Shown here piece by piece: positions 34,260 through 57,397 of a stretch of 64,000 nt of DNA. The translations under genes were made by a program, and so were the position numbers. Location: contig CAUYUJ010008047.1 in NCBI GenBank assembly GCA_963575745.1, forward strand, positions 368,139 through 432,138, in the 5' to 3' direction. The notes beneath the pieces were generated by a model. The model was not told where the DNA came from and did no database searches. It worked only from the letters and a program-made list of their open reading frames with translations. The DNA is from Prorocentrum cordatum (lineage: Eukaryota; Sar; Dinophyceae; Prorocentrales; Prorocentraceae). Positions within the stretch are counted from its first letter, which is position 1; the number at the start of each line of letters is the position of its first letter.

Positions 34260-34490
34260 ACGGGAGGAGGAGGAAAAGGAGGAGGAAGGGGACGAGGAGG
34301 AGGAAAAAGAAGAAAAAGAGGAGGAGTAGGAGGAGGGGGAAGAGAAAAACGAGGAGGAGGAGGAGGACGACGACGACAAGGAGGACGACGAGGGCGAGGA
34401 CGAGGACGAGGACAAAGAGGAGAAGGACGAGGAGGAGGAGGAGAGGACGAGGAGCAGGAGGAGGGGGAGGAGGAGGCGGGGGGATGAGGA
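34260..34490. repeat. (GGA)n/(GAC)n microsatellite
   Basis: Imperfect GGA, GAC and GAA triplets. Lys/Arg- and Ser/Pro-rich open frames are artefacts. Confidence 0.92.
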
Positions 34491-35210
34491 TTTTTTTTTG
34501 GGGTCGACCCATGATCAGCCACATGACTCCGCTGGCGTGGCGAGTGCCAGCGAGAAAAAGAGACAGGAGCGCAGCGGTGAAGGCACATCACTGCGCAGCA
34601 GCACGGCTCGGGCTGTCCACTATACAAGGACAGCAGACTGGGCGGCGAGGAAGAGCTATACAACCTGCAGCCGCCACCCGAGCAGGGTGCAACACGGGAG
34701 CCCACCGAAGGGGTCGTGATGCAGAGACCCAGAAAGCAACTACAGAGCAGAGTAGGCGACGGCGCCACACTCTACAGGCAGCAGCAAACGGATCCAGGAG
34801 CAGCAGACAGGAGGACCGATCGATCCACCCCGCACTCCAGGAAAGACACGGACCCACTGCACAGGGTAGTGCGGACAGTGCACGGGAGCGTGCAGGTGAA
34901 TCACGAACACGCCTCGAAAAAAGAACGAGAGAGGGCCCTCATCCAACAAGGGGCACTCTCCGCGCCGTGCGCGGGGCAGGGGAGCGACGGTGCGAGGGTC
35001 ACTAACGGCGCAGCGCCGGGCAGTCCCCACTCGCACCGCGCCCCCCGCCCGCACCCACCCACTATTCAGGTGCCTCGGGCTCGGGCGCCTGCTGAGCATC
35101 GCAGGCACCCCGAGCTCCGAGAAAACAAGCGGCTCGAGGGGCTCGCCCGCCTTGGGATGCAGGCCCCTTCGAGCCAGCTCGAGCATCGACGCGATGGAGG
35201 CCAAGACAGC
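34491..35210. other. No recognisable gene
   Basis: Plus frames 34220-35005 and 34716-35234 are open, but Arg/Gln/Ala-rich with no motif. Possibly the flank or 3' region of the LINE that follows on the minus strand. Confidence 0.35.
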
Positions 35211-35243
35211 CCGCTGCACTTAAGGGGCCCTTAAGTGCAGCGG
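35211..35243. repeat. Perfect 16-bp inverted repeat (33-bp palindrome)
   Basis: CCGCTGCACTTAAGGG, one G, then the exact reverse complement. It lies about 360 bases past the ORF2 stop on the minus strand, so it may sit in or beyond the LINE 3' UTR. The corresponding place in copy 2 falls in the gap. Confidence 0.85.
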
Positions 35244-35603
35244 ATCTGCTCCTTAGGAAACAAGGTACAGGCAACAAGCGAGCCGCGGCAGCTGCTTGCA
35301 GCAAACTAATTGGCAGGGAAGATTTAACGTGTTACAGTCAGCCCGTGGCCGACTAGCCTTGCCAGCCGTGCTGGCGAAAGTTCCTGACCAAATTTTTCAA
35401 CAAGCATCCAGCGCAACATGGGGAGGAGGATAAACGAGGACGCCGCCGCAAGCGTCCTCGCAAACGAAGTGCCTAAGACTGCCCGCTGTGCCGCCGTCAC
35501 CACAAGGAGCCTTCACCCCGTGGCCGCGCAGCAGCGAGCAAGGGCCGTGCAACAGCAGTGGCGTGAAAGTGAACCGCATCACACACCCTGAGCAAAGGCA
35601 CAA

Positions 35604-38600
35604 TTAAACCTGACAAAACGTATTGACATCCACCCGCACTCCTGGTTTATTGTATGACGGGTGGAGGCCCTTTTGGAGACGACTCCAAGGATTACAATGC
35701 GAGGCCCGTTTCGAAGGCTCACACTTCTTACCTAGGCGATCAAGCCGGCCCCCCGACGTGTAATAACCACATTTGTGGCAAATGCAAACGAAACTACCAT
35801 CCGTACAGTCTATGAGCACACATCTATGCCCTAGATCACGAAGTACTGACGGGTGCACATGCAAAGCGAGCGAGCATGACCCACCAGGAGGTTCGACGCC
35901 AAACGTGCCACGACGACCACGCAAGCACGTAGCACATTGCCAATACGAGCCTACCCAATGCCATTCATGTGAAGGTTTCGCAGGAGCCTGCTCTTTAGCA
36001 GGTGGCTTGATTCGCTCTAAATCTTTGCCCAAGTCTAATCTAGGCCACAAGGACATTAATCTGGCACCCAAACGTCCTACAGCTCGGGCCACGGCCACGG
36101 ACGGGGCAGGATGCAAGGATGCCGCAACCTTGGCCGAGGTATCAGCCCACGCATTGCCTTGTCTTAAATAGCGATCCCTTTCGTCGACCGCTTCATCGAC
36201 AGCAAGATGGGCTTTCACTTTGGATACCGTGACTTTGTGCATGTGCGGACGAGCAAACTGAGCCACGCCAGCAAACATATACCTGGCTGATATCTGCTCC
36301 ATCCAGGGCATCCCGAAAAAAATCACAACATTTAAACAGTCCGAAAAAATGTCACACTGGCCTGTGCTCCACTGAATGGCGATAGACATGGCAAAAAACT
36401 CGGCTGCTTGTGGAGTCTGGGGGCATGGCCCCCAAACTGGTCCTCTGACTCTCACTAATTCAAGCCCAGTCTCCCTGTCAACCAAAGTGAAGGCCCAGCC
36501 AGCTCGGTTCAATTCTTTCACAACGTAACGCGAACACGATCCATCCACGAACATGTCTCCAGCGAACACACTATGAAGGTCCCCAACCTCTCCTTGGGCC
36601 CACTCCACCTGAATACCACCTTTATCCAACGGAGCAGGAAAAACATCACCCGGGTGAGGAAACACCCCAAAGACAGCCAAGTTGTCGTCCACCTGGCTCG
36701 CCCACTTCTGGATCTTTATGGGCACAATCGAGTTCCTTAGTTCGACTACATCAGGACACTGGCATTCCCACAATCTATGGCGGAGCGTGTCAGGCGCCTC
36801 GCCACACAGCGGGCACAGCACGTTCTGCAGCTGGTAGCCTAGGTCTGCCGCACGCGTACGAGTGTACACCGCGTTGCAAAAAAGCGCCCTCAGACAGCCT
36901 TTTTCAAAGGCAGAATACTTCGTGCTCTGGAGATAACTAAGGACCCCATCAGTGCAAACACGCCCAGACATGTTCAGACGAGCCCCCATGTCCCACTCGA
37001 GACCTCTCACAACAGCTTTGCGAAGCAGATTCTTAATCAAAGTAGGCGAGAACTCCGTCAATTTAACCTCCTCACCCTTGTCAGTTCTAAAAACAGCGAA
37101 GGAAGGCATGGACCAGGAAATCCGCTCACATGATTTCCTCAACGCCGTGATCGGCCCCGAGACCGACCGCCACAAAGGGGAGTCTCCCGAGAAACCAACG
37201 TCCCAGGCCTCCCTGAGTTCGGGGAGCGAGAGACAGTGGGGGTAGGTCCGATGGTGAGCAATCCATATTTCCTTCGACCATCTGACCATCGGAGCGACCG
37301 ACGCATACCAACACGGCTCGCCATGCGAAAGAAGAAGAGCCGTCAGCGATCTTCCAGACGCTGATGGTTGCAAGACTGACGCCGCCTGGCGCCGCAATCT
37401 CAACAGCTCGTAGTCGCTCACACCATATATTTCGGATCCGAAAAGCTCCGAGGCCAAAGCTCCCGAGGCAAAAACGTTTTTGGTCACACGGGCCCCAACC
37501 AGAGGCCTCAAGCGGGCCAAACGGGAAACAAAACCACGAGCTTTTTGTTCACGCTTCTTTTGCTTCGAGCTCCTACCAGCAACACGTCTAGGGCGTCCCA
37601 CACAATCATCCACTCCTAGGTTCGCCGCTGAACTGACTAAGGGGCCAGCCAGGCCACCTAGTGCCTGAGCGAGATCACGCCCAAGCGCCTTAGAAGAAGC
37701 GATCAAGGATCTCTTTCCCACATCTTGACTCACCTTAGCTCCGATCCCCTCCTCCAGAATAGAAACCAAGGCTCTGACCACCGGTGGCAGATGCTCCACA
37801 ATGTATCGCCGCGACCCCGTAGCACTGAGGCCAGAGTCGTCGATATACAACTTAAAATGCACCTGTGGCGGAATGCACAGCATGTCGAGGGAAGCAATCG
37901 AGTACACTCTGATCAACGTGGTGGCAAACGTACACCCCGCGATGATTCCCCCCAAGGCCCAGAAGGGCCCATCCACAAACCCGTTCAACACAAAAAACCG
38001 AGCCTGAAGATACATCGCAATCGCGAGCCGAGCGATCGCGAGGGGGAAATTCACCTGCTTGCAACGCCACAGGAGCAACTTGAGATCAATAGTCTCATAA
38101 TATTTGTAAAGATCGAGCAGGACCGTTGCGGCTTCATCCTTGCTCAAAGTCGAGGTCTCCGCACGAACCGCCTGTCTCCACACCACGTCCTGGGCCCCCT
38201 CGAAGGGCCCAGCCGCGAAAAAACTCCGAGCGTTTTTGAACTCCCACTCCTGGGCCAGGGGCCTCCGCACCTTACCGTAAGCACGGTAAATCGCACAAAA
38301 ATTCCCAATCGGGCGAAAACCAGAAGCTGGTTTCGGGATCAACGTAAGGAGAGTGATGGCCACCTGTCTCGGTATCAGCGCCGTGAGCTCCATCACGGCA
38401 AACAGACCACACAGAATTCTGAGCAGCTCATCACTCAAGAAAGAGAAATGCCGCATGTGAAATCCGTCGACGCTGACAGAAGTGTTGATTTTGAAACGCC
38501 TGGAAAACTCACGTATCGCCTCCACAGGAACCTCAGGAAGTTCAGGGGCAAGCTCACCGACATGGAACCAGGGACCCCCACCAGCATCCCCCCAGAGGTC

Positions 38601-40154
38601 GGAAAAACGTTTGGACTCAGCTTGGAGCAACGACAAGGGGTCCGCCACCACCACTCCGTCCAAGGACAGGGTGGTGGTGGGGACCCATGGCGTCGCTCCT
38701 TTGGAAACGGTGTGGACCCTTCGGGCTCCCCGATTCACCTTAAACAGTAACCACTCCTTGAACTCTTTCCTGGCAAGCTTCCTAGAGGCAGCCTCAATAT
38801 TCACAAGCATGTCACGGCACATCTCATGCAAGTGATGGAAAAAATCAAGCATTGGGCCGTCTGCTGGCTCGTACATCGGGAGCTCGCGGACGAACTCCTC
38901 CAGCGAAGACCTAAAATTCTCCATCTGGCCTAGATCAGCGGCGCACTGAGCTGGTGGCTGCTCCAGGCGCTCGAGCACCCGTCCGATGCCAGACTGGTCT
39001 CCCACGGTCCAGTAGCACTCGAACTCACTAAAGAGATTGGTCAGCCACCTAGCAGCAAACAGTGTGCCATCGCCTTTGCCAGAGTCCTTGGACAGCACTG
39101 GGCGCCAGCACATTTGGGGAGGCTTACCACGAGAACCCCAAACAGGAAGGACCTTACCCGTGGCAGCGGAGACCTCACGCTCGGCAGCATTCGCCCAGTG
39201 TTTATAGACCAAGTCAACCGAGTCCTGAACTCGTTCGAAATCCCCCACCGTCGCCGCTCTACGAGACGAGTCCAGCACATCATGCAGCCACGTCGGAGGC
39301 TCACAAGCGGCGACGAGGCACACAGGCGGGAGAGGCGACGTGGGCAGCGGAGGGGGTTTCCGAAAAGACAAAGCCTGCAACCGCCCGAACTGCGGATGCA
39401 TGCTAATCCTGACTGGGACATGCGTACAGAGGTTGGTGTCACGGATGGCCTGCACACTGCTGACCGTCTTGGCCAAGTCAGAGGAGGCAATAAAGAAATC
39501 GTACTGCTTAAGACCCGCAACAGATTTCATCGTGTGACCCTCAGGCACCAGGAACTGGATGCTTTTCTGGTCCCCCAGGCCCCCAGTCAGGAGCTTCTCA
39601 GGCTCCATGTTAAAATCCGCGCCCAGGAAAAAAGGGAAACCGAGGCCCTCCCCCAGGGACAAACACGAACACAAGATATCGATGTTTGAATCCGAGAGGT
39701 CCTGGCAGTCATGGAAGTAGGCGGCCATCACCAAAAACGTGGGCTGCCCAGGCACCTCGACGATGCCTGCCAGAGCCCTCGACGGTATAATGATAGCTCC
39801 AGAGTCAGGAGCCCGCAGACCAAGCCCATCACGAACAAAGAGAGCGACTCCCGATGACGGGCCTTGACCATCACCAGGCACAGCAGCACTCCATAAACTT
39901 TTCCACCCGTGGCGTCTAGCCCAGGAAGAACCAGGATCGATTTGGTTAGCCAACTGCTTATGCTCCTGCATGATCACGATATCAGCACTAGTCTTCAGCA
40001 ACCAGAGCTGGCCAGGCCCCCACCCTGAGACATTGCAGGTTTCAACTGAGGGCGAAAAAGATTCAACAGGAAAAGCATTGGCCTCCATGGGCCTGATCAA
40101 CTGCACATCGGACCTGGGCGGAACACCAGGCAAAAGCGGGCCCCTAAGGGTCAT
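35604..40154 (-). CDS. LINE ORF2 polyprotein, copy 1: endonuclease, RT, RNase H, open throughout
   Basis: 1516 codons from the ATG at 40154; Met at 40088 is an alternative start. The frame is open further upstream, but there it overlaps ORF1. Domains: endonuclease/phosphatase fold with I-V-M-Q-E-H (about 39975), G-V-A-L-F-V-R-D, G-A-D-F-N-M and a C-terminal Y-D-F-F; RT with I-P-K-P-A-S-G-F-R-P-I, L-D-L-Y-K-Y-Y (38115-38095) and Y-I-D-D (37847-37836); a C-P-L-C-x8-H-x4-C knuckle (about 36818-36765); RNase H with F-V-D-G-S (about 36550), Q-A-A-E, F-S-D-C and N-A-W-A-D (about 36145); and a C-terminal Cys-pair region (C-A-T-C, C-I-C-H-K-C). A 30-base in-frame deletion relative to copy 2 lies near 36100, after the last RNase H Asp. 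It is potentially functional, though unproven. Confidence 0.92.
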   Translation of the reverse strand: MTLRGPLLPGVPPRSDVQLIRPMEANAFPVESFSPSVETCNVSGWGPGQLWLLKTSADIVIMQEHKQLANQIDPGSSWARRHGWKSLWSAAVPGDGQGPSSGVALFVRDGLGLRAPDSGAIIIPSRALAGIVEVPGQPTFLVMAAYFHDCQDLSDSNIDILCSCLSLGEGLGFPFFLGADFNMEPEKLLTGGLGDQKSIQFLVPEGHTMKSVAGLKQYDFFIASSDLAKTVSSVQAIRDTNLCTHVPVRISMHPQFGRLQALSFRKPPPLPTSPLPPVCLVAACEPPTWLHDVLDSSRRAATVGDFERVQDSVDLVYKHWANAAEREVSAATGKVLPVWGSRGKPPQMCWRPVLSKDSGKGDGTLFAARWLTNLFSEFECYWTVGDQSGIGRVLERLEQPPAQCAADLGQMENFRSSLEEFVRELPMYEPADGPMLDFFHHLHEMCRDMLVNIEAASRKLARKEFKEWLLFKVNRGARRVHTVSKGATPWVPTTTLSLDGVVVADPLSLLQAESKRFSDLWGDAGGGPWFHVGELAPELPEVPVEAIREFSRRFKINTSVSVDGFHMRHFSFLSDELLRILCGLFAVMELTALIPRQVAITLLTLIPKPASGFRPIGNFCAIYRAYGKVRRPLAQEWEFKNARSFFAAGPFEGAQDVVWRQAVRAETSTLSKDEAATVLLDLYKYYETIDLKLLLWRCKQVNFPLAIARLAIAMYLQARFFVLNGFVDGPFWALGGIIAGCTFATTLIRVYSIASLDMLCIPPQVHFKLYIDDSGLSATGSRRYIVEHLPPVVRALVSILEEGIGAKVSQDVGKRSLIASSKALGRDLAQALGGLAGPLVSSAANLGVDDCVGRPRRVAGRSSKQKKREQKARGFVSRLARLRPLVGARVTKNVFASGALASELFGSEIYGVSDYELLRLRRQAASVLQPSASGRSLTALLLSHGEPCWYASVAPMVRWSKEIWIAHHRTYPHCLSLPELREAWDVGFSGDSPLWRSVSGPITALRKSCERISWSMPSFAVFRTDKGEEVKLTEFSPTLIKNLLRKAVVRGLEWDMGARLNMSGRVCTDGVLSYLQSTKYSAFEKGCLRALFCNAVYTRTRAADLGYQLQNVLCPLCGEAPDTLRHRLWECQCPDVVELRNSIVPIKIQKWASQVDDNLAVFGVFPHPGDVFPAPLDKGGIQVEWAQGEVGDLHSVFAGDMFVDGSCSRYVVKELNRAGWAFTLVDRETGLELVRVRGPVWGPCPQTPQAAEFFAMSIAIQWSTGQCDIFSDCLNVVIFFGMPWMEQISARYMFAGVAQFARPHMHKVTVSKVKAHLAVDEAVDERDRYLRQGNAWADTSAKVAASLHPAPSVAVARAVGRLGARLMSLWPRLDLGKDLERIKPPAKEQAPAKPSHEWHWVGSYWQCATCLRGRRGTFGVEPPGGSCSLALHVHPSVLRDLGHRCVLIDCTDGSFVCICHKCGYYTSGGRLDRLGKKCEPSKRASHCNPWSRLQKGLHPSYNKPGVRVDVNTFCQV

Positions 40155-40401
40155 AGGTTTCGACGGCCGAGCAGAAACACCATTCGCCAGCAGGGCCCCC
40201 TTGGCCCTGGCTAACGCATGCTGAACCGCCCGAACGAGAGGGCCACTGTGGGCCCACAAAAAATTAGTATTAGAGACCGCATGTGACTCAGAGGTGCCCT
40301 GGGAGATCCACTCAGGGCTGGCCAACACACAGGCTGCTGTGGGGGAGGTACCCCCTCCGTTGGAAGAAGTCAAAAAATTCTGATCTCGCTGGCTCCCCCC
40401 C

Positions 40402-41667
40402 TCAGGCGCTGTCACCTTTGGGGGGGTCTGATTGTAAAATCTTGGCTGCACGCGCCTTGGCATCAGAACTCGCCGATGGCGCGCCCGTACCGCTTGATGG
40501 AGCCGCCGTGGGGGAAGTCGACTCTTGACCAGCCTCCGGAGCTTCACCACCAGGAGCCTGCGCAGTGGCTGAATGACCCACATGCGGACCATCATCTTCA
40601 GCTCCTGCAGCGGCACCTGGTACAAGAACCTTCCGCTTCTTGCCAGCCAAGCGTGACTTCTGCTCCTCCATCTCTTTACGAACGCGTTCAGCATGAGCCT
40701 GCGCGGCACCAAATAGTTTCTTCGCCTGCTTCTGTATCTCGTCGTTGAGTGTCTTGAGCCGAGCCGCAGCCTCGTTTCTGTCCTCCTCGTTGAGGTCGTA
40801 GTCTGCTTCCCACTCCAAAAGGCTGGACATGTCAATGGGTAGCGGTTGTCCACCAAGCAGGTCAGAGATGGAGATCTTGACCTCCTGCTTGACAGAGCCC
40901 TCGGGGTTCCGAGGCCGATCATCCACCGACTGGTGCAACTGCTCCACCAGCTCCTTGTGTAGCTTCTCCGAGGCCTCCAACTGCGAAGTAATTGACTCCA
41001 CATTGGCGCGGGCCTGGACCAGCTCGTTGGAGATGCGCTCGAAGGACTCCACCGCTTTGGACAGTCGGGCCTCCAAGCTCCGCATGCTGTGGTACGCCTG
41101 GTTGACCTTCTGCTGCAAGGGGGGCTCAACCTTCTTGGCTGCGGCCATCTCGTCGAGCTTGTGTTGATAACGCTTTGCTGATTCTTCGTCACCCTGGGCT
41201 CGCAACAACTGTACCAGTGATGCAATCCGAGTGTTCTCGTCGGGGGGTAGCTGGGCTCCTCCTGCGCCTGGAACTTGCGGGCCAGGATGAAGAGGAGCAG
41301 CACCACCGGGAGACAGCATCGGATTAGCAACCCATGTCCCTGGGGGCGGCGGCCCCTGTGCCCACACTCCGCGAGGAGCGGCGGGTTGTTGGAACGATGG
41401 TGACGAACGCCAAGCCCAGCAGTGTTTGCACTGCTGCCAAGCCTGCTTGTTCTTCTTGCAGCCGCAACTCGGACAAGTCCACCTCGATGAAGGTGCATCG
41501 CCGTGCTGGGCGCCACCCTTTCCACCGAACGTAGTACCTGTCTTGCCTCCTTTGCCGAATCCTTTGCCTTTGTTGAAGGACTGGGCATACTGCTGCTGCT
41601 GCGCCTCCAGCTGCCAAGGCGGGATCGGCCCTCCCCAGTTCGCCGCTGCTGGGGAAGGCACAGCCAT
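40402..41667 (-). CDS. LINE ORF1 protein, copy 1 (RanBP2-type zinc finger, coiled coil)
   Basis: 421 codons starting M-A-V-P-S-P at 41667, the first ATG downstream of the spliced leader in this frame. The frame is open upstream too, but that part is a microsatellite and GC-rich translation beyond the leader. N-terminus: Gln-rich, then G-K-G-F-G-K-G basic repeats. A finger W-T-C-x2-C-x4-N-x6-C-x2-C (about 41495-41435) fits the RanBP2-type signature. A Pro/Gly stretch comes next, then a long Glu/Lys/Gln-rich helical region (about residues 150-345) compatible with a coiled coil, and an Ala/Ser/Gly tail. Role by analogy: RNA binding in the retrotransposition particle. The stop at 40402 lies 248 bases before the ORF2 ATG. 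Confidence 0.9.
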   Translation of the reverse strand: MAVPSPAAANWGGPIPPWQLEAQQQQYAQSFNKGKGFGKGGKTGTTFGGKGGAQHGDAPSSRWTCPSCGCKKNKQAWQQCKHCWAWRSSPSFQQPAAPRGVWAQGPPPPGTWVANPMLSPGGAAPLHPGPQVPGAGGAQLPPDENTRIASLVQLLRAQGDEESAKRYQHKLDEMAAAKKVEPPLQQKVNQAYHSMRSLEARLSKAVESFERISNELVQARANVESITSQLEASEKLHKELVEQLHQSVDDRPRNPEGSVKQEVKISISDLLGGQPLPIDMSSLLEWEADYDLNEEDRNEAAARLKTLNDEIQKQAKKLFGAAQAHAERVRKEMEEQKSRLAGKKRKVLVPGAAAGAEDDGPHVGHSATAQAPGGEAPEAGQESTSPTAAPSSGTGAPSASSDAKARAAKILQSDPPKGDSA

Positions 41668-41795
41668 CGCACACACAACTGGATGGGTATCGTGGTAGGA
41701 AGCGCGGGACTCCGCCCGCAGAAACGAAAAAGGCTCGCAGGAACGCGGGCCCTTCTGAAGAACTGTTCCTGCAACGCTACTCGAGCGCAGAAGGG

Positions 41796-41817
41796 CTTGA
41801 GCCAAAATGGCTACGGA
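41796..41817 (-). promoter_or_regulatory. Complete dinoflagellate spliced-leader relic (copy 1)
   Basis: The minus strand reads T-CCGTAGCC-ATTTT-GGCTCAAG, matching all 22 nt of the dinoflagellate trans-spliced leader. It is followed by CCCTTCTG rather than a GT donor, so this is not an SL RNA gene but the leader of a trans-spliced mRNA copied back into DNA. It marks the exact 5' end of the inserted LINE. The 5' UTR after it contains a CCCTTCTG...CAGAAGGG stem. Confidence 0.95.
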
Positions 41818-41838
41818 AGGCGGGGGGATGAGGAGAAG

Positions 41839-41943
41839 CAGGGGGAAGAGGAGGAGGAGGAGGAGGAGGAGGAGGAAGAGGAGGAGGGGGGAGGAGGAGG
41901 AGGAGGAGGAACAGGAAGAGGGCGAGGAAGAGGAGGAGGACGC
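41839..41943. repeat. (GGA)n microsatellite directly outside the LINE 5' end
   Basis: Begins about 20 bases beyond the spliced leader, so it is flanking DNA, possibly the insertion target. Confidence 0.93.
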
Positions 41944-43885
41944 ACATGTGTTCGACCACCGCAGGCGCGCTCGCCATGTCCGCGCCAGGCCAAGCCATGC
42001 GCGCGCAGGGGAAAGAGGCGGAGGCGCAAACAGAGAGGCACAACGAGAACCATGAGAGGAACAAAAAGAGCAGCGGCGGGCATTCCGCACGAGGAGTCCG
42101 TTGTCATGAGGCGGGCGCGCGTTCCCACCAAATCGGACCATCGCGATTCGAGCGAATCGCCCCGCGCGCGCGCCCGAGCCACCGTCGCCACCAAACGACG
42201 GGGCCAGCTCAGCAGAGCAACAACACAGAAACACAAACAAGGGCGCCCCACAAAAACGGGGACACAGCACAAATAAGACACAACGACGCAGGAGCCTCGA
42301 ACCGCGTCGGGAACCCGGCACGGGGTGGCTGGCTAAAAGCAGGCGGCAGCGGCAGGGCGCCGCAAGCGCCTCGAACGCGGGGGGCATGGCGCGGGCGGGC
42401 GGGCGCAGATTTCTCGGGGGCGAGCGCTCTAGGCACAACGTGCCGCCTGCAAGCATTCGAGCTGAATGCTAAATGCCGGAAAGGGGGGGGGGCAGCGAGC
42501 CCAAAGGCGCGCTCGACTCCCTGCGTCGAGGGGCCGACCGCCGACCCACCGACGGGTCGGCCAAGGAACCGCACTTCGATTTCCAAAAAACAGGGGGCGG
42601 CAAGCGCGGGCGCGGCGAAAGAGGCGAGAGGGCCGGCGGGCAGCTCCTCCCCCAGCCCCAGGCCGCGCGTGAAACGAAGGCACACAAGCAAAGACACGAG
42701 CAGGATGAGCAGCAAAAAGCATGGGACAGGAGGGGGGGCGGCACGGGGCAACAACGAGCAGAAGAGAGAGGGCAGCAAGAGGACCAGACCAAGGGAACCG
42801 CGGAGGGCAACAAACCGAAAAGGATATAACGCAAGCGGACAAGGGCCAGCGCCCACGAGCCACGCATCCGAACCTGGAAGATCACGGCCGGCCTTGAATT
42901 CGCCAAGAAATATAAATCTCATACATTCGCAGCCGTATTCCAGGATCGCCACGAACCTCGGGCAGCAGTCAGCCAACCTTAAGACCCACGAGGGTCGCAA
43001 ACACTGCCAATCACATGCAGGGGCAGGGGGCCACAAGGGAAGGGAACTAAGGGTGCCACAGGAAAACGGGGGAACAGCAAGAGGGGAGGGCCCACAATCT
43101 ACCCCTGGGGAGGGGGGCAAGGGGGGGCGAGGGGCGAGGGGGGGCCCACCGAGAACCGAAGCCATACTGAGCGACTAATGCGCTTCCAACACTTCGGGGC
43201 GACGGCGAGACAATTGCCTCAACCGCGCCTCGACAAATGGAAGTCCTCAAGGACCTAGGATCCCGCCCGACGGGCATTTAGAGCAACCAGAAAATGGCCA
43301 ATAAAACCACGCCCCACCAGGTCACGAGACCTCCCTAAACGCGGCCACACGCAGCGAAGCGTCAATGGCCAGACGCCGCCATCCAATTGATCAGACCACG
43401 ATGCAAGTAGACCGCCACGGGGGGAGGTGCCGACGAGGCAACGTTTGAGATTCGGGCGCGCGCGATAATGCCGAAGGTCGTCATCAACAGACCCCTCCGC
43501 GTATCCAAGGGCGCAACCTAGCAGAGTGGAATGAACGCGGCTCAACGCGCACGTTCCCAGACGCAGTGCCTTGAGGGCGCGCGTCCCACGGTGCGTCGCG
43601 CTGTCTTTCTTTGCCTGGCGAAGCCTCGTGGCCTGCGCCTGGAATCGGCGACCGAAAAACGATCGGGCCCCGCCGCCGCTCGGGTGCCTTTGGGCCCGGG
43701 TGCCGATGGGCGCCATGGGGTCGCGGAGGGCGTTCGACCGCTTTATGGCGTCTTCCTGATTTTCTTTTATACGAAGCTGATTCCTGGGGGCGGGCGCGAG
43801 AGCGGGTGCCGAGAAGCTGCCCGCTTCTTGCGGTCGCCCTGATCCAAGATCCCCCCCACCGAGCCGCGCCCGCCCTGTCTGCGGG
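41944..43885. other. No recognisable gene between LINE and DIRS-like element
   Basis: Long frames on both strands are open (plus 41946-43178, minus 42209-43165), but they overlap and are Arg/Gly/Pro- or Leu/Ala-rich with no motif. This is what GC-rich non-coding DNA yields. A GGCCGAC...GTCGGCC stem lies near 42525-42562. Confidence 0.45.
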
Positions 43886-43888
43886 AAG

Positions 43889-44180
43889 ATGGCAAGGAAG
43901 AAGAGGAGGAGGAGGAGGAGGAGGAGGAGGAGGAGGAGGAGGAAGAGGAGGAAGAGGCGCCGGGGAGGAGGGGGAGGAGGAGGGCCCAGGGAGGAGGAAA
44001 CAAAAAGGAGGAAGACGAGGAGGACGAGCGACCAACGAGGAGGAAGCGGAAGCGGAGACGAGGGGGGGAGGAATGATGGGGGGGCAATAAAGGAGGAAAG
44101 GGGGCAGGGGAGGAGGCGGATCGGCCCTGACGACATGAGGACGAGGAGGAGGAGGACATACAGGGACGAGGAGGGATAGT
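43889..44180. repeat. (GGA)n-rich microsatellite
   Basis: GGA triplets, purest at 43900-43945. Confidence 0.93.
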
Positions 44181-44322
44181 GGCAAGGAGGAGAAGGAGGA
44201 ATGAAGAGGAAAGGGGGAATGGGGAGGGGAGGCAATCAAAAGGATGATAGAACAAAACCAAGGTTGAGGGGGATCAGGATGGAAGCGGAGGGGGGGATAA
44301 CGAAGCTGCTTACCCGCAAACA

Positions 44323-44355
<33 letters not shown>
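44323..44355. repeat. (TA)n microsatellite at the DIRS-like 3' end
   Basis: AT dinucleotides with one TG interruption, ending five bases before repeat B2. Confidence 0.95.
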
Positions 44356-44360
44356 GTGTT

Positions 44361-44426
44361 ACCCCATAGCGACGCATTGCGAAGCTTCCCACTCGACGCC
44401 GCTGAAATGGATTGGGAGCGCGCCCC
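44361..44426 (-). repeat. Split direct repeat B2
   Basis: 66 bases that match B1 (44591-44656) at 54 of 66 positions without gaps, sharing TTGCGAAGCTT, CTGAAAT and GCGCGCCCC. It is the outermost block at the 3' end of the element. Confidence 0.75.
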
Positions 44427-44445
44427 CTGGGAGGGCGGGGCGGGG

Positions 44446-44560
44446 GCGATGCGAAACCATGAGCACGGGCAACGGGCGAGGCGCGACAAGCTGTGCTACC
44501 GTAACCTTTACTCGCGTCACTGAACGGCCACTGATACATCATTACTGCGCACGCACGAAC
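44446..44560 (-). repeat. Split direct repeat A2
   Basis: Matches A1 (50160-50271) across about 112 bases. The most conserved part is ACTGCGCACGCACGAAC preceded by CTGATACATCATT. It lies between B2 and B1. Confidence 0.78.
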
Positions 44561-44567
44561 ATGCTGT

Positions 44568-45500
44568 TTAACCGCAACAAATAAAATGATATCCCAGAGA
44601 GACGCGTTGCGAAGCTTGCCACCAGACGTCACTGAAATCGATTGCAAGCGCGCCCCGCACCCCATCCAGGAACCCCGCGTTCAGGAACGCGCTGGTTTCG
44701 GGCGGGCTGTGGACGGAGACGCCGTAGAACTCAGCCGAGAAGTATATGGATACGGAACAGTGGTAACGTACTTCCATGCCCACGGCGACCTGAACGCACG
44801 TGCCACAGCACGACATAGCTGCGATATAATGTTTAGTTCGAAACGTATTCCAGCCAGCTGCGTCGACTCCTTCGAGGTGCTCATGAGGCCTACCAACGCG
44901 CGACCACATTCCAGCCGTGCCCATGCACTTGCGACCCAGGAGCGAGTCGTCAAAATCTGATGGCATGGGGGCGGAGGTCCAATTCCTGAAGTCGGCCCCG
45001 AACTGGCACTGGTCAAAAACGATGATAACTGTTTCCATTGACTTGCTGAGGCGCTCCAAAAACGGCACTGCCCAGAGCATCGAGGACGCTGGATTCTCGA
45101 TCGCGAGGGGGGCGTTGCACGGCGGGGCTAGCCTCGCCAGCTTGCATGTTACTTCAGCGAGCCCGTCGCCCCCAAGACACACCTTGCGACCCTTATCCGA
45201 TAGATGCGAAAGTCCCCAAATACACTCTGCAGAACGCGCGGCGCCAGGCAAGGGGCGAAGAACGCGGAGTTCTTCTAGCTATACTGAAGGAGCGGCACGG
45301 CGCAAAATAATATTCACTGCGCCTTGCCTTCGCCCATGAGCCGCATCAGGCCCGGCGCGATGCCTGGCGCGAAGATATTGGCGACCAGCTCGAGCTCGAT
45401 CTCTAGCGACGGGATGCCGCGCCGTGTCGCGGCTTTGCCAATGCCTGCCGCGCCTGCAAAGATGCCCAGGGAGATGTCGCCTCTGGCCAGCCAAGCGGTC
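44568..45500 (-). pseudogene. Cytosine-methyltransferase-like module of the DIRS-like element
   Basis: The first part (45493-45314) reads G-I-F-A-G-A-A-G-I-G-K-A-A followed by P-S-L-E-I-E-L-E-L, resembling the FAGxGG S-adenosylmethionine loop. A stop follows. The second part (about 45245-44800) has I-W-G-L-S-H-L-S-D-K-G-R, A-I-E-N-P-A-S-S-M-L-W (an ENP/ENV-type motif), V-F-D-Q-C-Q-F-G-A and G-R-P-H-E-H-L-E-G. I find no Pro-Cys catalytic motif, which should lie between the parts where about 60 bases (45250-45313) are out of frame. Assignment to a C5-methyltransferase-like family is by motif order only. The last ~60 codons run into repeat B1 and are probably not part of it. Confidence 0.5.
44591..44656 (-). 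repeat. Split direct repeat B1
   Basis: Partner of B2 at a spacing of 230 bases, sitting immediately inside A2. Confidence 0.75.
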
Positions 45501-45559
45501 GGGGCGCGATGACCTTGTCTAAGGGGACGTCGCCGGGCTGCTCGCTGCAGCGCAGCAGG

Positions 45560-46560
45560 GGCCCCTGGACGTTCGGCGGCAGGTCCACCAGCTGGGCGTT
45601 GATATTGCTCGACTTCTCGCGTCTGGCGAGCGAGCTGGCGCTGGCCCAGCGCCCGCGCCCCTGGACCTCCAGCTGCGACCTCCCGCCAGTGAGCGCGTCC
45701 CAGGACGGGCCCGCGCGCCGCGGGCCGCGCGGCGCAGTGCCGAGCGCCGAGCTTCTCCAGGTGGCGCAGCTTCGCCGCCTTCGCGACGAGGTTGCCCAAC
45801 TCCCACGAGATCAACGTAGCGGCGGACCCTTCGGCCGCTTGCCTCTGCGGTTCCGCTCGAGAAAGCTGCCTAGGAACTGCGAGTTGTTGTGGTCGAGCAC
45901 CACGTTGTCGTCGCAGACGCCCGTCTTGGTCGGGCTCCCGTCGTCGTCGGAGGGCGCTAGGGTGAGGGGCCAATTCTGGCAATCTCGGCCAGGCCCAAGT
46001 GAGGGCGGGGCGACGTCTCGAACGCGGAGACCGCAACTCCCCCGGCCGCGAGTGGGCGCCGAGCGCGACCACTGAGACCGCCACATTCACATCCGTTCGG
46101 CCCACAAGGTGCAGGGCCACAGCCAACCCGCAGATGGTCGGACATGGCCGAGGTAGCCGACCCCAATCTGGTCGCCGTCGCCCCCGCGCCTTGAGGGGCC
46201 TCTCGGACCTGGCGAGCGGCTAGGCGCTGGGCCTCTGGAGGAGGCTCGGGTAAAAGTGCAGGGCGGCAGCCTTCAGCTTCTCGCCGTCGCGCATCTTCCT
46301 GCCCGCCAGGTAGGCGCGGCCCGCCCGCCACGGCAGCGCCCCCCCCCCCAGGACGTCCAGGCTGTTCTCCTTCAAGCCCTGGGGGCGGGCGTGCTCCAAG
46401 AACTCCGCGACGCGCCTGTTGCAGTCCTCGACCTGGGAGGGCTTCGCCGCGATGCTCTCCGGGCAGGAGATCCCCCCGCTGCAGGCTGAACGCTGGGCGA
46501 CAGCCAGCCTCGCTGAGGTTGGGGCTCGCGACCTCCGCGAGCCGCCGCGATGCGAGGCTG
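45560..46560 (-). pseudogene. Tyrosine recombinase of the DIRS-like element
   Basis: The N-terminal part (about 46480-46220) reads Y/C-N-R-R-V-A-E-F-L-E-H-A-R-P and A-Y-L-A-G-R-K-M-R-D-G-E-K-L-K-A-A-A, the arm and core-binding region. The next frame (about 45990-45830) has P-T-K-T-G-V-C-D-D-N-V-V-L-D-H. The catalytic part (about 45745-45590) reads R-R-A-G-P-S-W-D-A-L, V-Q-G-R-G-R-W-A-S-A-S-S-L-A-R-R-E-K-S-S. In relatives I would expect R-H before A-G-P-S and a nucleophilic Tyr in L-A-R-Y-E-K; both positions are Arg here. At least three frame changes occur. It would have integrated the element's circular DNA; this copy is inactive. Confidence 0.68.
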
Positions 46561-46839
46561 GCGCCGCAGGCGGACGGGGCAGAATCGGCAACCCGGATGG
46601 CCCTGGAGCGCCGCCCGCCAGCGGGGGCGCCCCGCTCGCCCGGCGGTCGCCAAAGCGGCCAAGTGGCAGCGCGGCCGTCACCTCCAGGCGCCCGGCCCCG
46701 TTGCGCGCCACCACTCCGGGAGAGGGCCCCCGTCTCACAGCGGGCGCCCTCGTCGCAACGCCAGGCGCCAGGATGAACGAGCCCAGGGGGAGGGCGCCAT
46801 GGGCGACCCAGCGGCCAGAGTGCAAGTTCCCAAACGCGC

Positions 46840-47660
46840 GGAGGCCGATCGGCAGGATTGACCTGGGACGGGACCCATCGGCAATGGGCCCGTAGTCCAG
46901 TGGCCAGCTGAAGGGCGGCGACCTGTCTGAGCTGGCCCAACAGAGCGGGGCCCCTGCACCTGCCCTTCTGCGTCGCAAGCACCAGGCCCGCGTCGTCCAC
47001 GAGCAGGAGCACCGTTCTGTCGCCAGCGGCTGCAGCGCACCACGCGCTTGACGCCCAGCTTGACACCGCGCGCTTCATTGGCATGGGCGGCTCCTTCATT
47101 CATGTCCGCCACGCGGCCGTTTTGCCACAACGGCCCACTTCGCATCAGCAACCGATGTAAGGTTGATGTCAAGGAACCCGTGGCATGCCAGCCAGACAGG
47201 CTCCCCATCGCCCTGGATGATGTTGCGGCCACTCTCGATGGGGGGCTCGCCCAGCTCGTGGCCAGCCAGGGCAATTTCCCGGCGCCTGCGATTTGGGTCC
47301 TTCTTGAACCGCCGGCGCTCGCCCATGCGCCCCGTGAGCCGAACATCATCTGGACCCCGCGCAGAAACGCAGACGCCCGGGCCAGTCTGGCTGGCGTCGC
47401 AACACCTTGCCCAGCCAGCCTGCCCCGAGGTCCGTGTATCCAAGAGGCAAGATGGCCGCTGCGACGAGTAGCCCCCGCGCGACGCTCGGCCAGATGCCCC
47501 CGGCCTCGCCCCCTGCGGACTCCGCGAGGCATGGCAAGCAGGGCTGCCGCGAGAGGAACGCGAAGAACAGGCGACCCAGCACTGCCCGCATCTCCCTCCC
47601 AGCGCAGTGGCCGCGCCGCACGAGAGCGCGAAGCCCTGCACGGAGCCTCCGCGATCGCTG

Positions 47661-47718
<58 letters not shown>

Positions 47719-48470
47719 TCGCTCGCCGCTCCCCGTCCAGGCGGGCGCCGGCGATGTCGAGGGAGGTGCTGACCTGCTCGATCTCGTGGACCTGGAAACC
47801 CTCCTTCCGCGCGCCCGGGAGCGCCCGTCCACGCGGCTATTCCACTTCGGCTCTGTCGCAGCCGACCACTCCGAAGTTGTCGAGGCACGCCGCGCGAACG
47901 GCCCCATCCCCCAAGCTTGGCGGCGGCGCGCCGTAAATGCGCGGGGTAGATGAGATCCCGCGGGCCGACCTCGATCCCGTCGATGCCCCGCGCCCCCGGA
48001 GGCGACGCGCGGGCGGGTGGCGGGGCGAAGTGCCGCGACAGCTCCTCGTCGATCCTTAGCTCGTGGAAGTAGTCCTTGACGTCGAAACTGGCCGAGTAGA
48101 CGACCTGGCCCCGGCTCGTCTCCAGGTGGCTGAGGGGGCCCCCAGTAGCAAGCTGAATGGCATCTGGGATCTCGACGCGGGCGTTGCTCCAACGTGCGCC
48201 GCGCATGAGTCGTGGATCACACTCTTTCTGCGAACAAAGAACGGCCCGGACCTCCATTTGCAAGTTCGAATCCGCGCGAAGTTTCAGACGATAAAACCCC
48301 CCAACTTCGCCGGGCGTGCCGCCAGCACCAGGTCAAAGTGCAGGTTGGGCGGCCCCTCATCCCTGATGCGCAATGCATGCCCCTCTTGCCCGTCTTCGCT
48401 GAAAAGAACGGCGGTGCGAAACCGCTTGAGCTTGCGCGACGCCGCCCTGGGCGCGACGCTGTAGACGCCC
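46840..48470 (-). pseudogene. Reverse transcriptase and RNase H of the DIRS-like element
   Basis: A lead-in of unknown role (about 48470-48240, with A-L-R-I-R-D-E-G-P-P-N-L-H-F-D-L-V-L) precedes RT motifs: A-S-F-D-V-K-D-Y-F-H-E-L-R-I (about 48090-48045), then C-L-D-N-F-G-V-V (about 47890-47865), where Y-x-D-N-F is expected, and R-L-F-F-A-F-L-S-R further on. A 51-base GA tract interrupts the frame (47665-47715). RNase H-like sequence (about 47030-46850) reads L-L-L-V-D-D-A-G-L-V and R-W-V-P-S-Q-V-N-P-A-D-R, a hallmark of DIRS-type RNase H. Three frames must be combined to read it. Confidence 0.72.
47665..47715. repeat. (GA)n tract inside the DIRS-like RT (copy 1)
   Basis: 51 bases of GA. On the minus strand it falls between codons for E-R-R-A-I-T and F-A-A-I-A-E-A. 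Its length is identical in copy 2 (63245-63295). Confidence 0.95.
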
Positions 48471-51034: not shown

Positions 51035-51130
51035 CCGCTGTGCCGCCGTCACCACAAGGAGCCTTCACCCCGTGGCCGCGCAGCAGCGAGCAAGGGCCGT
51101 GCAACAGCAGTGGCGTGAAAGTGAACCGCA

Positions 51131-54100
51131 TCACACACCCTGAGCAAAGGCACAATTAAACCTGACAAAACGTATTGACATCCACCCGCACTCCTGGTTT
51201 ATTGTATGACGGGTGGAGGCCCTTTGGAGACGACTCCAAGGATTACAATGCGAGGCCCGTTTCGAAGGCTCACACTTCTTACCTAGGCGATCAAGCCGGC
51301 CCCCCGACGTGTAATAACCACATTTGTGGCAAATGCAAACGAAACTACCATCCGTACAGTCTATGAGCACACATCTATGCCCTAGATCACGAAGTACTGA
51401 CGGGTGCACATGCAAAGCGAGCGAGCATGACCCACCAGGAGGTTCGACGCCAAACGTGCCACGACGACCACGCAAGCACGTAGCACATTGCCAATACGAG
51501 CCTACCCAATGCCATTCATGTGAAGGTTTCGCAGGAGCCTGCTCTTTAGCAGGTGGCTTGATTCGCTCTAAATCTTTGCCCAAGTCTAATCTAGGCCACA
51601 AAGACATTAATCTAGCACCCAAACGTCCTACAGCTCGGGCCACGGCCACGGAAAGATCCAGGCCCTCACGCAGCTCGTCCGACGGGGCAGGATGCAAGGA
51701 TGCCGCAACCTTGGCCGAGGTATCAGCCCACGCATTGCCCTGTCTTAAATAGCGATCCCTTTCGTCGACCGCTTCATCGACAGCAAGATGGGCTTTCACT
51801 TTGGATATCGTGACTTTGTGCATGTGCGGACGAGCAAACTGAGCCACGCCGGCAAACATATACCTGGCTGATATCTGCTCCATCCAAGGCATCCTGAAAA
51901 AATTCACAACATTTAAACAGTCCGAAAAAATGTCACACTGGCCTGTGCTCCACTGAATGGCGATAGACATGGCAAAAATCTCGGCTGCTTGTGGAGTCTG
52001 GGGGCATGGCCCCCAAACTGGTCCTCTGACTCTCACTAATTCAAGCCCAGTCTCCCTGTCAACCAAAGTGAAGGCCCAGCCAGCTCGGTTCAATTCTTTC
52101 ACAACGTAACGCGAACACGATCCATCCACGAACATGTCTCCAGCGAACACACTATGAAGGTCCCCAACCTCTCCTTGGGCCCACTCCACCTGAATACCAC
52201 CTTTATCCAACGGAGCAGGAAAACATCACCCGGGTGAGGAAACACCCCAAAGACAGCCAAGTTGTCGTCCACCTGGCTCGCCCACTTCTGGATCTTTATG
52301 GGCACAATCGAGTTCCTTAGTTCGACTACATCAGGACACTGGCATTCCCACAATCTATGGCGGAGCGTGTCAGGCGCCTCGCCACACAGCGGGCACAGCA
52401 CGTTCTGCAGCTGGTAGCCTAGGTCTGCCGCACGCGTACGAGTGTACACCGCGTTGCAAAAAAGCGCCCTCAGACAGCCTTTTTCAAAGGCAGAATACTT
52501 CGTGCTCTGGAGATAACTAAGGACCCCATCAGTGCAAACACGCCCAGACAAGTTCAGACGAGCCCCCATGTCCCACTCGAGACCTCTCACAACAGCTTTG
52601 CGAAGCAGATTCTGAATCAAAGTAGGCGAGAACTCCGTCAATTTAACCTCCTCACCCTTGTCAGTTCTAAAAACAGCGAAGGAAGGCATGGACCAGGAAA
52701 TCCGCTCACATGATTTCCTCAACGCCGTGATCGGCCCCGAGACCGACCGCCACAAAGGGGAGTCTCCCGAGAAACCAACGTCCCAGGCCTCCCTGAGTTC
52801 GGGGAGCGAGAGACAGTGGGGGTAGGTCCGATGGTGAGCAATCCATATTTCCTTCGACCATCTGACCATCGGAGCGACCGACGCATACCAACACGGCTCG
52901 CCATGCGAAAGAAGAAGAGCCGTCAGCGATCTTCCAGACGCTGATGGTTGCAAGACTGACGCCGCCTGGCGCCGCAATCTCAACAGCTCGTAGTCGCTCA
53001 CACCATATATTTCGGATCCGAAAAGCTCCGAGGCCAAAGCTCCCGAGGCAAAAACGTTTTTGGTCACACGGGCCCCAACCAGAGGCCTCAAGCGGGCCAA
53101 ACGGGAAACAAAACCACGAGCTTTTTGTTCACGCTTCTTTTGCTTCGAGCTCCTACCAGCAACACGTCTAGGGCGTCCCACACAATCATCCACTCCTAGG
53201 TTCGCCGCTGAACTGACTAAGGGGCCAGCCAGGCCACCTAGTGCCTGAGCGAGATCACGCCCAAGCGCCTTAGAAGAAGCGATCAAGGATCTCTTTCCCA
53301 CATCTTGACTCACCTTAGCTCCGATCCCCTCCTCCAGAATAGAAACCAAGGCTCTGACCACCGGTGGCAGATGCTCCACAATGTATCGCCGCGACCCCGT
53401 AGCACTGAGGCCAGAGTCGTCGATATACAACTTAAAATGCACCTGTGGCGGAATGCACAGCATGTCGAGGGAAGCAATCGAGTACACTCTGATCAACGTG
53501 GTGGCAAACGTACACCCCGCGATGATTCCCCCCAAGGCCCAGAAGGGCCCATCCACAAACCCGTTCAACACAAAAAACCGAGCCTGAAGATACATCGCAA
53601 TCGCGAGCCGAGCGATCGCGAGGGGGAAATTCACCTGCTTGCAACGCCACAGGAGCAACTTGAGATCAATAGTCTCACCATATTTGTAAAGATCGAGCAG
53701 GACCGTTGCGGCTTCATCCTTGCTCAAAGTCGAGGTCTCCGCACGAACCGCCTGTCTCCACACCACGTCCTGGGCCCCCTCGAAGGGCCCAGCCGCGAAA
53801 AAACTCCGAGCGTTTTTGAACTCCCACTCCTGGGCCAGGGGCCTCCGCACCTTACCGTAAGCACGGTAAATCGCACAAAAATTCCCAATCGGGCGAAAAC
53901 CAGAAGCTGGTTTCGGGATCAACGTAAGGAGAGTGATGGCCACCTGTCTCGGTATCAGCGCCGCGAGCTCCATCACGGCAAACAGACCACACAGAATTCT
54001 GAGCAGCTCATCACTCAAGAAAGAGAAATGCCGCATGTGAAATCCGTCGACGCTGACAGAAGTGTTGATTTTGAAACGCCTGGAAAACTCACGTATCGCC

Positions 54101-55734
54101 TCCACAGGAACCTCAGGAAGTTCAGGGGCAAGCTCACCGACATGGAACCAGGGACCCCCACCAGCATCCCCCCAGAGGTCGGAAAAACGTTTGGACTCAG
54201 CTTGGAGCAACGACAAGGGGTCCGCCACCACCACTCCGTCCAAGGACAGGGTGGTGGTGGGGACCCATGGCGTCGCTCCTTTGGAAACGGTGTGGACCCT
54301 TCGGGCTCCCCGATTCACCTTAAACAGTAACCACTCCTTGAACTCTTTCCTGGCAAGCTTCCTAGAGGCAGCCTCAATATTCACAAGCATGTCACGGCAC
54401 ATCTCATGCAAGTGATGGAAAAAATCAAGCATTGGGCCGTCTGCTGGCTCGTACATCGGGAGCTCGCGGACGAACTCCTCCAGCGAAGACCTAAAATTCT
54501 CCATCTGGCCTAGATCAGCGGCGCACTGAGCTGGTGGCTGCTCCAGGCGCTCGAGCACCCGTCCGATGCCAGACTGGTCTCCCACGGTCCAGTAGCACTC
54601 GAACTCACTAAAGAGATTGGTCAGCCACCTAGCAGCAAACAGTGTGCCATCGCCTTTGCCAGAGTCCTTGGACAGCACTGGGCGCCAGCACATTTGGGGA
54701 GGCTTACCACGAGAACCCCAAACAGGAAGGACCTTACCCGTGGCAGCGGAGACCTCACGCTCGGCAGCATTCGCCCAGTGTTTATAGACCAAGTCAACCG
54801 AGTCCTGAACTCGTTCGAAATCCCCCACCGTCGCCGCTCTACGAGACGAGTCCAGCACATCATGCAGCCACGTCGGAGGCTCACAAGCGGCGACGAGGCA
54901 CACAGGCGGGAGAGGCGACGTGGGCAGCGGAGGGGGTTTCCGAAAAGACAAAGCCTGCAACCGCCCGAACTGCGGATGCATGCTAATCCTGACTGGGACA
55001 TGCGTACAGAGGTTGGTGTCACGGATGGCCTGCACACTGCTGACCGTCTTGGCCAAGTCAGAGGAGGCAATAAAGAAATCGTACTGCTTAAGACCCGCAA
55101 CAGATTTCATCGTGTGACCCTCAGGCACCAGGAACTGGATGCTTTTCTGGTCCCCCAGGCCCCCAGTCAGGAGCTTCTCAGGCTCCATGTTAAAATCCGC
55201 GCCCAGGAAAAAAGGGAAACCGAGGCCCTCCCCCAGGGACAAACACGAACACAAGATATCGATGTTTGAATCCGAGAGGTCCTGGCAGTCATGGAAGTAG
55301 GCGGCCATCACCAAAAACGTGGGCTGCCCAGGCACCTCGACGATGCCTGCCAGAGCCCTCGACGGTATAATGATAGCTCCAGAGTCAGGAGCCCGCAGAC
55401 CAAGCCCATCACGAACAAAGAGAGCGACTCCCGATGACGGGCCTTGACCATCACCAGGCACAGCAGCACTCCATAAACTTTTCCACCCGTGGCGTCTAGC
55501 CCAGGAAGAACCAGGATCGATTTGGTTAGCCAACTGCTTATGCTCCTGCATGATCACGATATCAGCACTAGTCTTCAGCAACCAGAGCTGGCCAGGCCCC
55601 CACCCTGAGACATTGCAGGTTTCAACTGAGGGCGAAAAAGATTCAACAGGAAAAGCATTGGCCTCCATGGGCCTGATCAACTGCACATCGGACCTGGGCG
55701 GAACACCAGGCAAAAGCGGGCCCCTAAGGGTCAT
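51131..55734 (-). pseudogene. LINE ORF2 polyprotein, copy 2 (frameshifted before RNase H)
   Basis: Endonuclease and RT are as in copy 1 (Y-I-D-D at 53427-53416). Near 52222 a four-A run (five in copy 1) shifts the frame just after P-H-P-G-D-V-F, so the RNase H and C-terminal Cys region (52210-51131) are in another frame. Motif A region reads L-Y-K-Y-G-E instead of L-Y-K-Y-Y-E (53679-53680 region). Copy 2 keeps ten residues (D-E-L-R-E-G-L-D-L-S) that copy 1 lacks. A T-run difference at 51223 gives the protein a different C-terminal tail and a later stop. Either copy could hold assembly errors at these homopolymers. Confidence 0.9.
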
Positions 55735-55981
55735 AGGTTTCGACGGCCGAGCAGAAACACCATTCGCCAGCAGGGCCCCCTTGGCCCTGGCTAACGCATG
55801 CTGAACCGCCCGAACGAGAGGGCCACTGTGGGCCCACAAAAAATTAGTATTAGAGACCGCATGTGACTCAGAGGTGCCCTGGGAGATCCACTCAGGGCTG
55901 GCCAACACACAGGCTGCTGTGGGGGAGGTACCCCCTCCGTTGGAAGAAGTCAAAAAATTCTGATCTCGCTGGCTCCCCCCC

Positions 55982-57247: not shown

Positions 57248-57375
57248 CGCGCACACAACTGGATGGGTATCGTGGTAGGAAGCGCGGGACTCCGCCCGCA
57301 GAAACGAAAAAGGCTCGCAGGAACGCGGGCCCTTCTGAAGAACTGTTCCTGCAACGCTACTCGAGCGCAGAAGGG

Positions 57376-57397
57376 CTTGAGCCAAAATGGCTACGGA
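57376..57397 (-). promoter_or_regulatory. Complete dinoflagellate spliced-leader relic (copy 2)
   Basis: Identical to the relic at 41796-41817, in the same position relative to ORF1. Confidence 0.95.

Follow-up and report, generated by a model that had tools for sequence, protein, structure and literature searches.

A LINE lineage of Prorocentrum cordatum with two probable 5′ ends, one of them the spliced leader

The leader-bearing LINE and its insertion boundaries

The window, i.e. the whole 64,000-nt stretch of the Prorocentrum cordatum genome analysed here, carries on its minus strand an exact copy of the 22-nt dinoflagellate spliced leader (SL), TCCGTAGCCATTTTGGCTCAAG, at positions 41796-41817. 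When the window was shuffled 100 times, SL matches averaged 0.00 even with a tolerance of up to 3 mismatches. The leader lies 128 nt before the ATG (41667) of ORF1 of a LINE (40402-41667, minus strand, 421 aa), which is open. It contains a coiled-coil-like stretch, matched by Pfam below the curated threshold, and, spotted by eye, a CxxC motif that resembles a zinc finger. ORF2 (35604-40154, minus strand), whose putative start is the first ATG past the ORF1 stop, codes by homology for endonuclease, reverse transcriptase and RNase H. The second frame is open to 35604. The position of the leader and the open two-ORF layout are thus as described in the original prediction. The ORF2 frame is also open across the entire ORF1 and 5′ UTR (41810-40402, minus strand) as far as the TAG within the SL, and the CCCCCCCAAA run just upstream of the ORF1 stop may be a site of frameshifting.

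Among the best 8,000 candidates scored from a database of 5.8 billion proteins, at least 19 proteins match residues 100-1450 of ORF2 at E 0.001. The best-scoring relative listed is 35% identical, and nine relatives show 30-35% identity across 44-98% of these residues. Pfam detects RVT_1 in 6/10, Exo_endo_phos in 6/10 and RNase_H in 3/10 members of a set of 10 ORF2 proteins; the window ORF2 itself matches no Pfam family at 0.01, Exo_endo_phos reaching 0.049. It is through these relatives that the element is assigned to the LINEs with a predicted reverse transcriptase and APE-type endonuclease. ORF2 relatives were not confirmed in viral and genome contig collections, and a search of solved structures gave no match.

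The complete insertion spans 7,327 bp (34491-41817, minus strand). A 17-bp target site duplication (TSD), TCCTCATCCCCCCGCCT, directly adjoins SL base 1 (5′ copy, 41818-41834), and its 3′ copy (34474-34490) adjoins the A9 tail that forms the 3′ end of the element (34491-34499, read past ORF2). The target is a TCC-rich polypyrimidine tract upstream of the SL (41818-41944, minus strand), and polypyrimidine sequence resumes past the element with one break (34490-34256). Within these two low-complexity tracts a similarly anchored repeat of at least 17 nt is found for 8 of 23,220 position pairs. The element thus has the A tail and TSD of a LINE and, as in SL-relic retroposed units, the full SL at its very start, forming its first 22 bases. 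The order TSD17-SL-element-A9-TSD17 means that neither end of the insertion is missing and that it starts with SL base 1, in line with the earlier proposal that the leader is part of the retroposed unit and that the insertion is full length at its 5′ end. Since the SL opens a complete insertion, the RNA of the LINE itself would have been trans-spliced and then reverse-transcribed, and trans-splicing before reverse transcription best explains the position of the leader.

Dinoflagellate genomes do contain SL RNA genes, and an SL could stand beside a LINE by chance. Either reading has a negligible probability here: the bases directly after the leader, CCCTTCTG, begin with CC and provide no GT donor, eight loci share the arrangement, and the TSDs, within which the SL lies, already refute it. 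The earlier dismissal of an SL RNA gene is therefore upheld. An exact SL followed by GT does occur in an rDNA spacer, between rDNA-like stretches, of a contig binned as Dehalococcoidia (L003, 4334-4354), which suggests an SL RNA gene of dinoflagellate type on an rDNA contig that is a contaminant. Another Dehalococcoidia contig has an exact SL near its start, directly after a (TCA)n run (L002, 32-52). IMGVR_UViG_3300045993_001077 (L001), a contig of 22% GC that is giant-virus-like in our reading, has on its minus strand, within about 1790-2766 and 2893-2913, two exact 21-nt SL matches and, after one of them, a GC-richer, dinoflagellate-cDNA-like stretch, possibly a host mRNA retroposed into a giant virus genome.

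A second exact SL in the window (57376-57397, minus strand) belongs to a 12.9-kb near-copy, in which 51035-64000 repeats 35483-48420, beginning right after an N gap. The duplicate is 100% identical over 41672-48420, and every difference found, about 20 substitutions and a 29-nt indel, lies inside the LINE. It is probably an assembly product whose LINE was filled from several genomic copies, and its SL was counted as the same locus as 41796-41817. The window holds a further, distant LINE on the plus strand, with ORF1 at 21926-23059 (ATG to TAA) and an ORF2 region at 23070-27363, taken from the first ATG after ORF1; the reading frame of ORF2 changes once near 23.6 kb, and an N gap conceals its 3′ end. 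Downstream of this LINE (21815-27363, plus strand) are (CAT)n and (TCC)n tracts. The ORF1s of the two window LINEs scarcely align, and 27/1000 shuffles score as high as the alignment of these two 5′ UTRs taken by themselves.

The 5′ ends of related copies

Part of ORF1 was searched against the 4.13-Gb assembly, in which the window lies in G000:C8047. The search gave at least 40 matches (40 scored of 72 candidates, hence a lower bound). Among the 40 listed, 2 lie in the window, 19 are long (98-100%, 85-86% and one of 71% identity) and 19 are short; judged by 5′ domain and ORF1 match, the short-match loci are other LINE families. The 5′ end could be read at 38 loci, counting the window copy and leaving out its duplicate and L017, where the 5′ end is scrambled. 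L017 is joined to an apparent inverted piece of ORF1, as in twin priming. A database gene model, P0020 (L013, G000:C6136), fuses ORF1 pieces with N-terminal residues absent from the window; here a LINE copy was probably taken for a portion of a host gene.

Two kinds of 5′ end are found. SL or SL relics are carried by 8/38 loci (the window, L014, L021, L029, L031, L035, L036 and L037), single, doubled or, once, as a four-unit ladder. The other 30/38 begin with AG and the element body, and beyond AG their 5′ ends showed no piece of the SL. In the window copy the last two bases of the SL, AG (41797-41796), occupy the place of the other copies' own first two element bases. We refer to SL plus the 5′ domain described below as class I, which includes the window copy, and to AG plus this domain as class II. 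Both occur intermixed among copies more than 99% identical in ORF1 (L012 and L014 compared with the window). Leaderless copies are thus commoner than SL copies among those examined. The upstream survey suggested by the original prediction did bring up SL relics and tandem SLs, but the majority (30/38) proved leaderless, and the view that the element inherits a new leader each round does not hold for these copies, which start with AG and the conserved domain.

Where both ends could be compared, the boundaries are mostly precise. Among the SL copies, TSDs ending at SL base 1 measure 17 nt in the window, 15-16 nt in L014 (a T is possibly shared) and 11 nt in L036, a member of another LINE family. 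In L031, the ladder copy, a TSD of 14/15 nt with one mismatch, found by eye, also ends at SL base 1. L029 has a consistent TSD of low complexity, no TSD was resolved in L021, and the boundary set leaves out L035 and L037, whose 3′ ends were not seen.

The 3′ end was seen in 14/30 AG loci and not in the other 16/30. A TSD was resolved in 12 of these copies, and 10/12 start exactly at AG. By script, the TSD stands directly before AG in L012, L016, L018, L019, L023, L024, L028 and L047, the last with a TSD of 17-18 nt that is not polypyrimidine. It does so also in L020, where the repeat begins 7 nt inside the 3′ flank, and in L030, where it is imperfect and was found by eye. L039 starts 1 nt and L025, by eye, 2 nt before AG; no TSD was found in L022 and L026, although their 3′ ends were seen. 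TCC repeats of low complexity make up most class II TSDs; across both classes, the few TSDs that are largely non-TCC belong to the window copy, L012, L014, L036, L047, L030 (imperfect) and L031 (one mismatch). L012, L030 and L047, whose TSDs are largely non-TCC, thus provide the most telling AG-copy boundaries.

The 16 TSD-resolved loci (4 SL, 12 AG) accordingly start at the SL, at AG or 1-2 nt before AG, rather than continuing well upstream of the leader, the outcome that had been named as contrary to the prediction. At the level of insertion boundaries in DNA, they show several sites at which LINE RNA bearing the SL was inserted. The claim that the LINE's own RNA was trans-spliced and then used as template gains from the SL copies elsewhere with other TSDs, one of them in another family. 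By the same kind of boundary, a second, unspliced and leaderless RNA that begins at AG appears to have been copied as well; the SL-spliced and the AG-started transcripts are both deduced from these DNA boundaries.

LINE reverse transcriptases are known to jump between templates, and the leader might have been gained by a switch to another SL-bearing RNA during insertion. We consider this very improbable, as the five single-SL copies (window, L014, L029, L035, with one SL base changed, and L036) join the SL to the body at the splice position, and neither SL RNA intron nor other mRNA sequence follows the SL. The tandem leaders argue against it too. Splicing at the inner AG of a genomic SL leaves 15-nt relics, and units starting after this AG are present in L021 (two units) and L031 (four units), not in the window copy. 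In L021 the SL and an exact 15-nt relic are joined to CGTTGCAGG, with the 19 element bases after AG skipped, as though splicing had used the following AG. In L031, TCCGTAG and then four 15-nt units stand between the TSDs, and L037 has a decayed double SL. Such ladders would be expected if the inner AG were used for splicing round after round, and in this sense they may be read as a record of those rounds. Slippage could be a part source of the L031 units, because the youngest and the oldest share one variant.

The conserved 5′ domain and the leaderless end

The first 66 nt of the element (41732-41797, minus strand) are nearly invariant in the long copies, with the exception of L021 (55/66). 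L030, the most distant long copy (ORF1 71% identical), keeps 64/66 of these bases; outside the domain it matches at 25/63 positions in the remainder of the UTR and at 711/1000 in ORF1. The extreme 5′ end therefore holds a short conserved block, placed like the Pr77 hallmark, which makes it unsafe to state, as had been done, that no promoter need lie inside the copied RNA.

Conservation and covariation support a pseudoknot within this domain. On the minus strand, P1 pairs 41796-41788 with 41757-41749 (domain bases 2-10 with 41-49) and P2 pairs 41772-41765 with 41744-41737 (domain bases 26-33 with 54-61); in the model, a hairpin H lies within 41787-41775. In 14 distinct rows, all related sequences, 94.2% of cells are paired compared with a mean of 90.3% in shuffles, none of which (0/500) is as high, and pairing drops to 38-50% when the pseudoknot is slid by 1-3 columns. 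Changes on both sides affect 14 cells (4.8 in shuffles; 0/500) and five pairs (0/500). Further pair types, 11 against 10.0, do not exceed the shuffles (66/500 as high). Most of the support comes from P1, with 99.2% paired and four pairs changed on both sides. P2 is 89.3% paired, one of its pairs being unpaired in 6/14 rows, in one of which it was misplaced by the alignment. A P2-like stem pair was matched in 1/4,000 shuffled UTR pairs. The helices covary, so the domain presumably acts as RNA.

The second window LINE shares the arrangement: (TCC)n is followed by AG and the same pseudoknot, with no SL (21815-21886, plus strand), which places it in class II, its TSD being unreadable. The alignment misplaced its P2 by two columns; in hand registration, where the L045 row omits one base of a T run, 8/8 pairs are Watson-Crick and two are changed on both sides. 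A descriptor fitted to both window LINEs, and hence not independent of them, matches 58/127,034 window positions, both LINE starts included. The single-strand fold energy of both 5′ UTRs is unremarkable (z −0.7 to −1.6). An additional GCTCG/CGAGC helix closing the domain was discarded, since by inspection L046 and L048 are unable to form it.

We also considered whether the element start is itself a decayed leader. Read as a decayed 15-nt relic, CCCTTCTGCGCTCGAG after the window SL has a score that is reached at 53/127,484 positions, SL-overlapping ones included; for the start of the second LINE 10/15 bases agree, and 9/8,317 AG-preceded positions are as good. This reading was dropped because the same bases form P1 in many families and the shared structure explains them; P1 may possibly have been derived from an SL relic. 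As the SL ends in AG, trans-splicing would in any case rebuild the first two bases of the element and with them P1.

The AG end could be made by self-cleavage, by transcription start or by a stop of the reverse transcriptase; these are the candidates. In the first, the pseudoknot would be a self-cleaving ribozyme with a fold outside the known classes that cuts read-through RNA 5′ of AG and frees the class II template. The domain sits at the first bases of the insertion, its helices covary and class II starts are mostly precise. HDV-like ribozymes are nested double pseudoknots with P3 between P2 and P1′; the present topology is different, with an extra hairpin between P1 and P2 and short linkers of only 6-7 nt (P2-P1′) and 2-4 nt (P1′-P2′). 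No Rfam family matches the 5′ domain, and no HDV or other ribozyme family is found up to E 10. An HDV-like ribozyme was therefore rejected, and self-cleavage in general is weakened by the first A of the copy, which is unpaired in the first family. HDV-like ribozymes that free RNA from co-transcripts are established at LINE 5′ ends, as in R2 and L1Tc (PMC8190864, PMC12222951), and we hold self-cleavage as a tentative possibility with the balance against it. A slightly more tentative extension is that a new ribozyme class, with P1 at the cleavage site, frees the LINE RNA and that SL trans-splicing at the same AG provides the capped route; if true, two interchangeable 5′ ends would regenerate each other, since the leader itself ends in AG.

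Transcription from A+1 by an internal promoter overlapping the 66-nt domain would likewise account for a nearly fixed 5′ base and for conservation limited to this block, the SL form then being a side product of read-through. The precedent is Pr77, a 77-nt 5′ hallmark with promoter activity and unspliced transcripts (PMC8190864). As the covariation of the stems points to a function in RNA rather than DNA, we regard this as doubtful. If, in the third case, the SL mRNA were the sole RNA, class II copies would be reverse transcripts that always halted after two bases of the SL had been copied, for example because of a modified base or a bound factor. The final AG of the SL does coincide with the AG at which class II starts, and one RNA is simpler than two, but 30 AG loci show no SL piece beyond AG, full SLs were copied in 8 loci, and the conserved pseudoknot is left unexplained, so that we think a reverse transcriptase stop unlikely.

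Target sites, a proposed cycle and known systems

The 40 nt upstream of the element are at least 85% pyrimidine in 29/38 loci, compared with 2.3% of window positions. By class, this holds for 25/30 AG and 4/8 SL loci; with half of the SL class lacking it, the target preference is not strict. Kibi, Waldo and Mino are LINEs that target microsatellites, and by target preference alone the present elements resemble them in favouring simple repeats. Here the sense strand of the preferred target is polypyrimidine and would provide a splice acceptor as well. Such a tract with AG behind it resembles an acceptor, so landing there may permit trans-splicing of new copies; in Amphidinium, the trans-splice acceptors are reported to have no simple sequence consensus beyond AG (PMC2488372).

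Taken together, we consider it probable that this is a LINE lineage with two discrete 5′ ends, maintained as follows. A class II copy would land in a (TCC)n tract, in keeping with the observed preference, and its own AG after the pyrimidine run would serve as a ready-made trans-splice acceptor. Read-through transcription of the copy and SL trans-splicing at this AG would give an SL-LINE mRNA, which as template yields a class I copy, an insertion that TSDs ending at SL base 1 document. The terminal AG of the SL would restore the first two bases of the element and the P1 helix, so each form could yield the other, and later splicing at the inner AG would add 15-nt relics, giving doubles and four-unit ladders. 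In parallel, unspliced RNA starting at AG would be copied into class II elements, whose start in DNA is fixed by the TSDs. The pseudoknot most likely helps to make or protect the AG end, like the 5′ ribozymes and hallmarks of other LINEs.

SL relics on retrogenes are well known in dinoflagellates (PMC3229502, PMC12014239, PMC7245778, PMC6050394). In the model of Slamovits and Keeling, a trans-spliced mRNA is reverse-transcribed and inserted with its SL, and splicing at the inner AG leaves 15-nt relics (PMC3229502, PMC12014239, PMC7245778). The LINE copies follow the same route with two differences: it is the retrotransposon's own RNA that was retroposed, ORFs, tail and TSD included, and most of the copies examined are without SL and share the AG start and a conserved RNA domain. 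The ingi/L1Tc LINEs of trypanosomatids also live in SL-trans-splicing cells and have, at +1, a conserved 5′ hallmark that is about as long; their Pr77 is an HDV-like ribozyme and promoter with unspliced transcripts (PMC8190864). In the present elements the fold is another, and SL-bearing copies exist. R2 elements share a structured RNA at the LINE 5′ end, for which a role in RNA processing or protection is proposed (PMC12222951). They differ in their HDV-like 5′ ribozyme and 28S rDNA targets, the present elements having another topology, polypyrimidine microsatellite targets and, in their relatives, an APE-type (Exo_endo_phos) endonuclease.

Links between leaders and mobile elements have been noted in other organisms. 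In Schistosoma, six genomic SL exons are merged to transposable elements, for which retro-transcription of trans-spliced RNA or an assembly artefact was suggested (PMC5832876), and in Hydra about 30% of transposable element Iso-Seq reads bear the SL (PMC12220107). The available parts of these two reports do not describe insertion boundaries or TSDs, and neither ladders nor a second kind of 5′ end are mentioned (PMC5832876, PMC12220107). A study of endogenous RNA viruses reports SLs close to viral genes that have been inserted, and it implicates LINEs (PMC10235124). SL-bearing LINEs are not mentioned in the available text of the P. cordatum genome paper and a decade review (PMC10666404, PMC11453091), and in the mostly open-access literature, as far as its accessible parts go, we found no published report of a dinoflagellate LINE with the SL at its insertion boundary or of the 66-nt 5′ domain.

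The observation is thus stronger than first stated, and it is better told as one of two exchangeable 5′ ends and a conserved, putatively functional 5′ RNA. This conserved domain poses the question whether it acts in self-cutting, transcription start or protein binding. Retroposition is blamed for much of the gene turnover in dinoflagellates, and as candidate source of the enzyme one review favoured LTR elements (PMC6050394). With a LINE lineage that inserts its own SL-bearing RNA, flanked by a TSD and ending in an A tail, LINEs become plausible producers of SL-tagged retrogenes.
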